Assembly: GCA_902570785.1 (NCBI GenBank)
Contig: CACFZK010000001.1
Location: 1 to 64,000, forward strand
DNA: 64,000 nucleotides
DNA from: an uncultured Pelagibacteraceae bacterium
GTDB taxonomy: Bacteria > Pseudomonadota > Alphaproteobacteria > Pelagibacterales > Pelagibacteraceae
Direction of reading: 5' to 3'
Translations under genes and position numbers: made by a program
Shown here: piece after piece, positions 42,695-46,500 of the stretch
How the letters are laid out: each line of letters begins with the position of its first letter
Position numbering within the stretch: position 1 is the first letter of the stretch
Notes under the pieces: generated by a model
What the model was told of the DNA's origin: nothing
Databases searched by the model: none
The model's input: the letters and a program-made list of their open reading frames with translations, nothing else

Positions 42695-43765
42695 TTAAAA
42701 ACATACTAAATGGTCAATAAAAATAGGCGACTTAATACCAAATTTTTCATTTTTTTCATGTTGATGAATGTGGTGGGAGTGAACAAATACAGGGATTTCC
42801 TCTTTTTTATCAGTTTTTAAAGTATAAATAAAATTAGTTCCTCTAAATTTTCTGTCCACTACCTCTAACTTCAATTTACTTTGATCATCATGGATTAAAT
42901 CCTCCGGCTGTAATAATAATTTTACTTTTGAGCCAACTGGAAAATTATTTAATAATTTACCTCTTATCTCTCCTAGCTCTTGATGCATCAAACTATGAAC
43001 CGCACAATCAGTTTCTACAACTTTTACTTCAATAAATACTCCTCTATTTAAAAATTTTGCAACTTCGATAGAATTTGGTTCGTGATGAATGTTATAGGGC
43101 TTATCATACTGTTTTAAAGATTGATCTAATATAATGCCACATTTATCTCCAAGGAAAAAAGCTTCAAAAGAGTCGTGTGTTACAATTAAAGTTGTAATAT
43201 CAAATTCTTTCAAAATATTTTTGATTTTTTTTTGTAATTCTTCTTTTAAAGTAGCATCTATGTTTGCAAAAGGTTCATCTAGCAAAAGCAAATCAGGTTT
43301 GGAAAGTAATGATCTTGCCAGAGAAACACGTTGTGCTTCACCTGCACTTATTTGGTGGGGATATTTATTTTTAATATCCTCTAGGTGTAAAATTTTAATT
43401 AGATCACTGTCTGAGTAATTAAATTTAGATCCATTTTTTCTCTTTGATCCGATATTAATATTTTCTACAACATTAAAATGTGGGAATAGTGAATTGTCTT
43501 GAAAACACATTGCTATGTTTCTTTTTTCAGGTTCTAAATTAAATTTTTCAGATGAAATTATTTTGTCTTTAAGTTTAATCTCTCCGGATTTTAGATTTTG
43601 AAGTCCAGCAATCGTTCTAAGAATAGTAGTTTTTCCGACGCCTGATGGGCCGAGCAAGCAAACAATTTCGCCCTTTTCTTTAATTTTTAAAGATACATTT
43701 TTAACTTTATTATTATCACTAGCAATAAATGTTGCATTATTAATTTCTAAAAAGTTTGAAGGCAT
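42695..43765 (-). CDS. fbpC: Fe(III) ABC transporter ATP-binding protein
   Basis: LLGPSGVGKTTILRTIAGLQ, SAGEAQRVSLARSLLSKPDLLLLDEPFANID; C-terminal regulatory domain. Confidence 0.92.
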   Translation of the reverse strand: MPSNFLEINNATFIASDNNKVKNVSLKIKEKGEIVCLLGPSGVGKTTILRTIAGLQNLKSGEIKLKDKIISSEKFNLEPEKRNIAMCFQDNSLFPHFNVVENINIGSKRKNGSKFNYSDSDLIKILHLEDIKNKYPHQISAGEAQRVSLARSLLSKPDLLLLDEPFANIDATLKEELQKKIKNILKEFDITTLIVTHDSFEAFFLGDKCGIILDQSLKQYDKPYNIHHEPNSIEVAKFLNRGVFIEVKVVETDCAVHSLMHQELGEIRGKLLNNFPVGSKVKLLLQPEDLIHDDQSKLKLEVVDRKFRGTNFIYTLKTDKKEEIPVFVHSHHIHQHEKNEKFGIKSPIFIDHLVCF

Positions 43766-43780
43766 CTAGCTACTATAACT

Positions 43781-45397
43781 TTATTTTTCTGAAAGTATAT
43801 ATTTAGAAATAAACAATATAAATACACTTGCCCAAATTATTAAACATAATGATGGAAAAGCAGCTGCTTCTAATAAGTCTTGTGCGGCATATGAATAAGC
43901 TTTAGTCGCAAAAGTTTCAAAATTAAAAGGTCTTAGTATTAATGTAATTGGCAATTCTTTAATAATTTCTAAAGCTATTAAAACACCAACCAATATTATA
44001 TTGGTTTTTAAATACGGTAAATGAATGCTAGAAAAGGTTTTAAATTTTGAATATCCAAGAAGATATGCATTTTCATCAATTGAATTATTTATTTTTGAAT
44101 ATCCAGATTTGATTCCATTGTAAGAAAGTGAAAAAAATCTAACAAAGTATGCAATCACAAGACCAACTATAGAACCAATAAAAACATTCTTAAAACCATT
44201 AAATCCAAAAATGGAACTTAACAAGTCGCTAAACCAAGAAATAAATGTTATAAAAGCGACTGCTAAAATTATTCCTGGTAAAGCATAACCTGACACTGAG
44301 AAAGTAGACAAATAACTAATAAGTTTGTTTTTTGATACTCTATTTCCGTAATTCGTCATAAATGAAAATAAGATCAAAAATAAACTTGATAAAAATACCA
44401 ATAAAAGAGTATTCATATTTAGTGACCAAAAGTTTATATCCTGAAAATATTTTGGAAATTTTATCGTCCAATAAGTCATTTGAGAAACTGGGAAAACAAA
44501 ACTACAGAAAAATAAAATCGAGCAAAAACAAGTCGCAAAAATAGATTTTCCCCCCACTAACTGAATTTTTGGAATAGGCTTATTGCCTTTTGAATTTTGA
44601 TGATATTTTGCTCCTTTTCTTGATAGATTTTCAATAACAAACAATAGAAGGATAAAAAATAACAAAACAAAAGATAATTGATTTGCAGTTGTTAAATCGT
44701 CAAAAGAAATCCATGCATTGTAAATAGCTGTGGTCAATGTTGAAATACTAAAAAAATCTACTGTTCCAAAATCTGACAGAGTTTCCATTGCAACAAGCGA
44801 TAAGCCCACTACTATTGCAGGTCTTGCTGATGGTAAAATAATTTTAAAAAAACTTTCATATGATGATAAACCTAAATTTTTACCCACTTCTATAAGATTA
44901 TGAGATTGAAATACAAAAGAGGCTCTTGTTAAAACATAAACATAGCCGAACAAAGAGAAAGAAATTGAAAACATTGACCCAATTAATCCATCAAATTTAG
45001 GTATATTTTTATTATAATCTCCTTCTCCAAATAAAAATGTTAATATACTAAATGCGGTCCCATAATTTTCAAAAAAAGCAACTAAAGAATAAGCATAAAT
45101 GTAAGCTGGAACAGCAAAAGACAATATCAACGCCCATTTAAAAAAGTTAACTGCAGGAAATTTATAAAAAGAAACAAAATAAGCTGAGGTTACACCAAAA
45201 ATAAAAGTTAGTAATAAAACACCTAATAAAATTAAGAATGAATTGCTTAAATAATTTAAAAGCAAAGTTTCTGTTAAAAGATCTAAATAATTTCCTGTTG
45301 TATCAAAGAAACTTAAAAAAACTGTAAAAATAGGTATGGCTACTAGTAAAGGTACTAAAAACGCAAAAATAACCCAAAAATTTATCCTCTTTATCAA
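43781..45397 (-). CDS. fbpB: Fe(III) ABC transporter permease (two permease halves, TTG start)
   Basis: ~538 aa multi-TM; KIILPSARPAIVVGLSLVAMETLSDFGTVDFF EAA loop. Confidence 0.92.
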   Translation of the reverse strand: MIKRINFWVIFAFLVPLLVAIPIFTVFLSFFDTTGNYLDLLTETLLLNYLSNSFLILLGVLLLTFIFGVTSAYFVSFYKFPAVNFFKWALILSFAVPAYIYAYSLVAFFENYGTAFSILTFLFGEGDYNKNIPKFDGLIGSMFSISFSLFGYVYVLTRASFVFQSHNLIEVGKNLGLSSYESFFKIILPSARPAIVVGLSLVAMETLSDFGTVDFFSISTLTTAIYNAWISFDDLTTANQLSFVLLFFILLLFVIENLSRKGAKYHQNSKGNKPIPKIQLVGGKSIFATCFCSILFFCSFVFPVSQMTYWTIKFPKYFQDINFWSLNMNTLLLVFLSSLFLILFSFMTNYGNRVSKNKLISYLSTFSVSGYALPGIILAVAFITFISWFSDLLSSIFGFNGFKNVFIGSIVGLVIAYFVRFFSLSYNGIKSGYSKINNSIDENAYLLGYSKFKTFSSIHLPYLKTNIILVGVLIALEIIKELPITLILRPFNFETFATKAYSYAAQDLLEAAAFPSLCLIIWASVFILFISKYILSEK

Positions 45398-45442
45398 TTC
45401 TCCTCCTAAATTTAGTCCCCGGAGGAGTCCAGGGACTAAATT
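45395..45442 (-). promoter_or_regulatory. fbpA-fbpB intercistronic RNA element: 11-bp hairpin with anti-SD loop upstream of fbpB SD
   Basis: Minus-strand RNA AAUUUAGUCCC-UGGACUCCUCCG-GGGACUAAAUU-UA-GGAGGAG-AA-UUG; loop CUCCUCC complements SD GGAGGAG. Confidence 0.65.
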
Positions 45443-45456
45443 ATTCTAATATAAAA

Positions 45457-46500
45457 TTACCAGCCGGCTTCGTTCATTACTTTCAAAGCTTTAGCCTGGA
45501 GTTTTCCATAATTAGAAACTTTTGTTTTTAGATCTTGTTTAAAATCTAAACCAAATTGTGCAATTAATTTATTTGCTTTAACGCCAGGTATCATTGGATA
45601 CTCAAAAGTATTGTTTACAATATGCTGTTGAGCTTCAGGGGTTAAAAGAAACTCTAACAATTTAACTGCATTAGCTTTATTTGGTGCGTGTTTTAATATA
45701 CCGCCGCCACTAATGTTCATATGTGTACCTCTTCCGTCCTGATTTGGGAAGAAAGGCATTACTTTTTTAGCTGCCGCTTGTTGTTCAGCACCTTTGTTTC
45801 CAGATAACATTAAAGCTAAGTAATAAGTGTTTGCTACAGCCCAATCTGCTTCTCCAGCAGCTACAGCTAATATCTGCGCTCTGTCGTTACCAGTTGGTTT
45901 TCTAGCAAAGTTATTTACCATTCCTTTTGCCCAAGCTGCAGTATTTTTCTCACCATTATTTTTAATAAGTGATGCAACTAAAGACTGATTATAAATGTTG
46001 CTTGATTTTCTTATTACTACTCTACCTTTGTATTTAGGATCAGCTAAATCTTCATAACTCATATTCCATGAAGGATTAACTGTTTTTGGATTGTAATAAA
46101 TTATTCTTGCTCTTTTTGCGATTCCAACCCAATAAGGTGATCTAAAGTTAGCAGGTACAACTTTTTTAATAGCTGCCGAACTTGCTCCCTTTTGAAACAT
46201 TCCTTCTGATTGAAAAGCTCCTAATCTTCCAGCATCTGCAGTTATATAAATATCTGCTTTGCTGTCCTTCCCTTCTTCTTTAATTCTTTTTTGCAATGCT
46301 TTATCTTTTCCAGATACTACATTTACTTTTATTCCAGTTTTTGATGTAAATTTTTTATAAAGTTGAACATCAGAATCATAATGTCTTGCACTAAAAACAT
46401 TCACTTCTTTTGCAAAAACTGAATTTGCAACTAACAATGTTGAAAACAAACCAACAATAGCTACTCCAATTACTCTAATTAACTTATTCATATTTTCCAC
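45457..46500 (-). CDS. fbpA: Fe(III) ABC transporter periplasmic binding protein (FbpA/SfuC-type)
   Basis: VNVFSARHYDSDVQLYKKFTSKTGIKVNVVSG, RIIYYNPKTVNPSWNMSYEDLADPKYKGRVVIRKSSNIYNQSLVASL. Confidence 0.95.
   Translation of the reverse strand: MENMNKLIRVIGVAIVGLFSTLLVANSVFAKEVNVFSARHYDSDVQLYKKFTSKTGIKVNVVSGKDKALQKRIKEEGKDSKADIYITADAGRLGAFQSEGMFQKGASSAAIKKVVPANFRSPYWVGIAKRARIIYYNPKTVNPSWNMSYEDLADPKYKGRVVIRKSSNIYNQSLVASLIKNNGEKNTAAWAKGMVNNFARKPTGNDRAQILAVAAGEADWAVANTYYLALMLSGNKGAEQQAAAKKVMPFFPNQDGRGTHMNISGGGILKHAPNKANAVKLLEFLLTPEAQQHIVNNTFEYPMIPGVKANKLIAQFGLDFKQDLKTKVSNYGKLQAKALKVMNEAGW

Follow-up and report, generated by a model that had tools for sequence, protein, structure and literature searches.

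The window, a stretch of 64,000 nucleotides of contig CACFZK010000001.1 from an uncultured Pelagibacteraceae bacterium, encodes on its minus strand an Fe(III) ABC transporter in the order binding protein (fbpA/sfuC), permease (fbpB/sfuB) and ATPase (fbpC/sfuA). We read the first gene as a putative sfuC on the basis of its homology with SAR11 sfuC and the last as a putative sfuA from gene order and motifs. In the spacer between sfuC and sfuB, the initial annotation had described an 11-bp stem formed by positions 45432-45442 and 45409-45419, and the sequence, the coordinates and the stem were all confirmed. The features, in the order in which they are read on the minus strand, were:

45457..46500, minus strand: fbpA/sfuC, periplasmic Fe(III)-binding protein, the upstream gene of the operon (open reading frame)
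45432..45442, minus strand: 5' strand of stem S1, AAUUUAGUCCC (sequence, fold, 22 of 27 genomes of the genus)
45428..45431, minus strand: apical extension UGGA, whose partner in the RNAfold minimum is UCCG (45423-45420)
45421..45427, minus strand: anti-Shine-Dalgarno (anti-SD) CUCCUCC in the apex of the hairpin and complement of the Shine-Dalgarno sequence (SD) of sfuB; 5' side of helix S2
45409..45419, minus strand: 3' strand of stem S1, GGGACUAAAUU (sequence, fold, conservation in the genus)
45400..45406, minus strand: fbpB/sfuB SD GGAGGAG, 3' strand of S2, kept together with the loop in 22 of 27 genomes of the genus
43781..45397, minus strand: fbpB/sfuB, Fe(III) ABC permease, TTG start at 45397-45395 (open reading frame, orthologues)
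42695..43765, minus strand: fbpC/sfuA, the transporter's ATPase, which follows sfuB after 15 nt (open reading frame)

The hairpin of the window genus lies 14 nt past the sfuC stop (45457), and in the window only 2 nt link S1 to the SD. Orthologues of fbpA/sfuC adjoin the same spacer in near relatives. In the reading developed here, sfuB is the controlled gene.

The site is singular in its genome. A scan of both strands of the 964,106 bases for hairpins with a stem of at least 9 bp, a loop of 8-16 nt and a loop complement of at least 7 nt in the next 22 nt returned the window site alone, and a pattern search of the same genome gave no further copies. Rfam was searched, as the initial annotation had proposed, with the window and representatives of three loop groups, but no family matched and no score was at or above the gathering threshold. 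A literature search for the sfuC-sfuB spacer element found no published description.

The RNAfold minimum for the window was a 15-bp stem with the tetraloop CUCC, at -22.2 kcal/mol and with z between -2.8 and -3.7, in which S1 was formed and the SD was free. RNAfold extends the stem through the UGGA:UCCG pairing, so that part of the 12-nt loop is closed in this minimum, and the pairing competes with that between loop and SD. Thus the anti-SD does sit in the apex, as had been claimed, but the predicted free loop is CUCC rather than all 12 nt. The GG:CC part of the extension was kept in the hairpin-bearing relatives, with C-G plus G-U in L020. At 37 °C, S1 alone with the anti-SD forced open had an energy of -13.9 kcal/mol, and the alternative hairpin that masks the SD (fold B) had -12.6 kcal/mol. 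Because the link is only 2 nt, the full 11-bp S1 and S2 are mutually incompatible and the base of S1 must melt for both to form; the shortened pseudoknot suggested in the initial annotation is possible on these terms, with the AU base opened and 5-8 bp of S1 kept. A rough model at 37 °C with a penalty of 9.6 kcal placed it at about -17 to -21 kcal/mol, which is on a par with the RNAfold minimum at best and falls short of it by about 5 kcal at worst. Rough fold energies were computed at 10, 20 and 37 °C.

Within the window genus, the stem, CUCCUCC and the SD were kept in 22 of the 27 genomes that have sfuC, and the sfuB tree united the CUCCUCC group in one clade (support 94). One compensatory U-A/C-G change between loop and SD separates L020 (CCUCCUCU:AGAGGAGG) from L022 (CCUCCUCC:GGAGGAGG). 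The element was absent from the five most diverged congeneric genomes, four of which have other hairpins lacking an anti-SD. Among diverged members of the genus, L024, L025, L026 and L027 have post-sfuC hairpins of the AUUGUG..CACAAU type without an anti-SD, and in L025 sfuB follows only after a further 550 nt or so.

Elsewhere in SAR11, sfuB leaders occur in which a hairpin unrelated in sequence has a loop that matches the RBS of the same leader. The loop UCCUCUAA is complementary to UUAGAGGA over 8 bp (L157, L158), while many members of the large genus g3 have a UUACCC loop complementary to GGGUAA, the helix being 7-11 bp in most. The GGGUAA mostly precedes the start in these leaders; in L178-L183 the loop complement is AUGGGUAAU, which covers the start codon (AUG). 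Double changes in S2 gave UUUACCC:GGGUAAA (L145), CUUACCC:GGGUAAG (L132, L122) and AUUACCC:GGGUAAU (L178, L131), with a U-G intermediate in L142. The GUG/CAC stem base and the UUACCC loop were near-invariant in the UUACCC group, the remainder of the stem being variable. On the sfuB tree, the CUCCUCC clade was split from the UUACCC group with 100% support and UCCUCUAA nested within the latter, a topology that would suit either two origins or the wholesale replacement of loop and RBS together. A covariance model of the UUACCC form had 24 matches at E<0.001 in 250 g3 genomes, 23 of them directly before sfuB; the other (L249, E 2.6e-4) was in a fetched stretch without sfuB. The same model found nothing in the genome of the window; by sequence, the g1 and g3 forms thus cannot be recognised as members of a single family.

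A small conserved CxxC open reading frame (e.g. ..NLNKLKTGCSPCM..EAKKME..) was seen between sfuC and sfuB in L028, L124, L145 and many other SAR11 that do not belong to the window genus. Where this frame intervenes, the hairpin still adjoins sfuB. In position the element follows the sfuB start rather than the sfuC end.

Both helices were evaluated statistically. In 16 UUACCC leaders, 94% of the S1 cells were paired, both sides had changed in 10 of 18 pairs, and none of 500 shuffles reached any of the whole-structure measures; sliding the partners by 1-3 columns lowered the pairing to 39-47%. S2 was scored on curated sequences because MAFFT misaligned the loops of L123, L126 and L131. In 31 curated leaders, all related to one another and picked because they have the motif core, the loop paired with its own RBS at a mean of -12.0 kcal/mol, compared to -8.4 kcal/mol when the RBS was exchanged and -6.0 kcal/mol for shuffled loops, and none of 20,000 permutations, which ignore relatedness, was as low. 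Within the UUACCC group the own RBS gave -11.1 and the exchanged RBS -9.95 kcal/mol (p 0.0006); given the choice of leaders and their relatedness, these p values are indicative only. The covariation that the initial annotation had proposed to look for is strong in S1; for S2 it is suggested by a small number of double changes and by the exchange of the entire pairing sequence, and there are leaders that depart from it.

The exceptions are several. L139 and L253 kept the hairpin and a UUUACCC loop but lost GGGUAA, L142 and L183 each have one mismatch between loop and RBS, and in a sample outside the window genus that was not chosen for the motif and came mostly from one genus, about 10 of 40 leaders had the match. 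A lineage with a GUG-stem hairpin and a UCUCCUU loop was considered as a further case of loop:RBS pairing and rejected, since the loop fits its own RBS no better than shuffles. L274 and L285 represent a natural hairpin-minus state in which sfuC is followed directly by AAGGG(U/C)AAAUAUG. For these reasons the masking pair, as judged from the leaders compared, is common but not universal in SAR11. Loss of complementarity under a retained hairpin, which the initial annotation had named, for close relatives, as an outcome that would count against the idea, occurs in L139 and L253. In 22 of the 27 window-genus genomes the match was kept.

Other structures were noted before sfuB. In the UCUCCUU lineage (L269, L271, L272, L275, L281, L294), the GUG-stem hairpin is followed, some 25-30 nt later, by an RBS lying inside the loop of an AT-hairpin (AUUAUAA-GGCGGA-UUAUAAU). 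L136 has a hairpin, AUAUUAGAGGAG-UAAUUUUA-UUCCUCUAAUAU, with SD-like and anti-SD-like arms, the actual RBS being unmatched. A different conserved, structured-looking element (GACGUCAA..UCUCUGGCUUAAAUGC..GCCGCUUUAGCCAGAGA..AUG), without an Rfam match, precedes sfuB in g4 and relatives (L137, L138, L146, L150, L155, L164) and could be a separate regulatory RNA.

Taken together, the comparisons suggest that the spacer is probably an RBS-masking, pseudoknot-capable leader of sfuB that restrains SfuB relative to SfuC. The stable S1 hairpin would expose, or partly expose, a pyrimidine-rich apex, and this apex would pair with the purine-rich RBS just downstream to give S2, either in a pseudoknot, for which the AU base of S1 opens, or in a hairpin that replaces S1. 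With S2 formed, 30S subunits would be barred from the RBS, while with S1 alone the RBS would be free. The permease, and probably also the ATPase that follows, would then be translated less than the binding protein encoded by the same mRNA, and some factor could possibly shift the balance between S1 and S2. We infer that S2 may form in the cell and lower translation, and that a signal, if any, might be iron, a cold-shock or other RNA-binding protein, or temperature. The throttle by RBS masking put forward in the initial annotation stands in so far as the loop:RBS match is kept in the genus and recurs with different sequences elsewhere, but as a rule for every leader it fails in L139, L253 and the UCUCCUU lineage. 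A constitutive throttle and a responsive switch are equally compatible with these observations.

Several known systems resemble the element in part. The E. coli rpsO (ribosomal protein S15) leader forms a pseudoknot that pairs with the RBS and early coding sequence and must be melted by the 30S subunit for initiation (PMC3858243). The sfuB leader is likewise pseudoknot-capable at a translation start, and, as in rpsO-type leaders, its hairpin lies upstream of the start with a loop complementary to the RBS/start region. It differs in gene, sequence and host, in having no known ligand, in its internal operon position and, in the window genus, in that the complement is the SD itself. In translational riboswitches of the SAM-II and preQ1 type, the RBS is masked by pseudoknot pairing. 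The sfuB leaders, unlike these, appear to lack a conserved aptamer core, only GUG/CAC and the pairing loop being shared, and the scarcity of sequence conserved across lineages outside the pairing regions speaks against an aptamer. The structured RNAs described in Pelagibacter (Meyer 2009, PMC2704228; HIMB5 study, PMC6429828) are also SAR11-specific intergenic structures; however, the former gives the spacer ahead of sfuC (SAR11_1238/1239) rather than the one between sfuC and sfuB, and in the main text of the latter no iron or sfu element was found.

The main rival is an internal terminator or stabiliser, that is, a partial terminator or a structure protecting the 3'-end of the sfuC message that yields an excess of binding protein, the loop:SD match being a by-product. 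In clostridial ABC importers, stem-loops with long, GC-rich stems and few U's stand behind the binding-protein genes and act as internal terminators (PMC9045158). As there, a stem-loop stands between binding-protein and translocator genes and more binding protein than permease would be expected; the 14-nt distance from the sfuC stop and the sfuC > sfuB > sfuA mRNA gradient in Pelagibacter fit as well. However, the SAR11 element differs in having no U-tract, in its loop complementary to the next RBS, which changes together with it, and in staying before sfuB when a small frame separates the genes. The initial annotation was correct that no U-tract follows the stem: the GC-rich hairpin with trailing U-tract of an intrinsic terminator was not found at the window hairpin, nor did a scan of the region detect any terminator-like site. 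We consider this explanation improbable. There is also a slim chance that the hairpin is the binding site of a regulatory protein, loop:RBS pairing being secondary or merely reinforcing repression. The near-invariant GUG/CAC base and UUACCC loop amid a variable stem in one large group, the retention of both in L139 and L253 without an RBS complement, and the proposal of CspE/CspL as RNA-level iron-stress regulators (PMC2864753) are in its favor, but the loop differs wholly between lineages (CUCCUCC, UCCUCUAA, UUACCC) and changes together with the RBS.

The remaining two explanations carry far less weight. Chance complementarity between a purine-rich SD and a pyrimidine-rich loop, kept by close relatedness alone, is in keeping with the near-invariance of the match within the genus and its absence from many SAR11, but is very improbable when the site is the only one of its kind in its genome and separate lineages have unrelated matching pairs and compensatory changes. 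An inverted repeat acting as a DNA operator can hardly be credited: the sequence does contain nested palindromes, but G-U pairs are retained in both S1 and S2, which points to RNA rather than DNA, strand and position are fixed at the sfuB start, and promoter-like signals in the region were at chance level only.

Masking of the sfuB RBS, the preferred reading, can also be considered in a cultured strain. Meyer et al. placed the HTCC1062 sfuC/SAR11_1239 spacer at 1181972-1182071 (PMC2704228), in agreement with sfuC at 1180958-1181935 in G053, which is thus very probably HTCC1062. The sfuB leader of G053 has a hairpin from 1180937, a start at 1180877 and a loop, AUUACCC, matching AUGGGUAAU, so that cultured HTCC1062 apparently carries an RBS-matching hairpin before sfuB. 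The SAR11 iron-limitation work mentioned in the initial annotation does exist: according to that study, iron limitation of HTCC1062 raised sfuC, sfuB and sfuA mRNA 16-, 10- and 5-fold and SfuC protein 27-fold, SfuB peptides were never detected, which the authors explained in part by insolubility, and protein changes were unexplained by mRNA changes (PMC2864753). No mention of a sfuC-sfuB element was found in the paper. This expression pattern is compatible with, but not evidence for, translational restraint.

A bolder interpretation, which we hold to be rather unlikely, is that the leaders constitute a family of translational switches, specific to SAR11 and responsive to iron or a protein; loop and RBS would have been jointly replaced several times, and the permease would be controlled by RNA refolding instead of a transcription factor. 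SAR11 have few transcription regulators and are thought to rely on RNA-level control. The element, located on an Fe(III)-uptake operon, offers a concrete, mutable target for the question of why protein and mRNA levels diverge, and it would be a case in which an RBS-masking structure was kept while its pairing sequence was exchanged. If the switch interpretation were true, the ocean's most abundant heterotroph would have its main Fe(III) transporter controlled, at the permease, by RNA.
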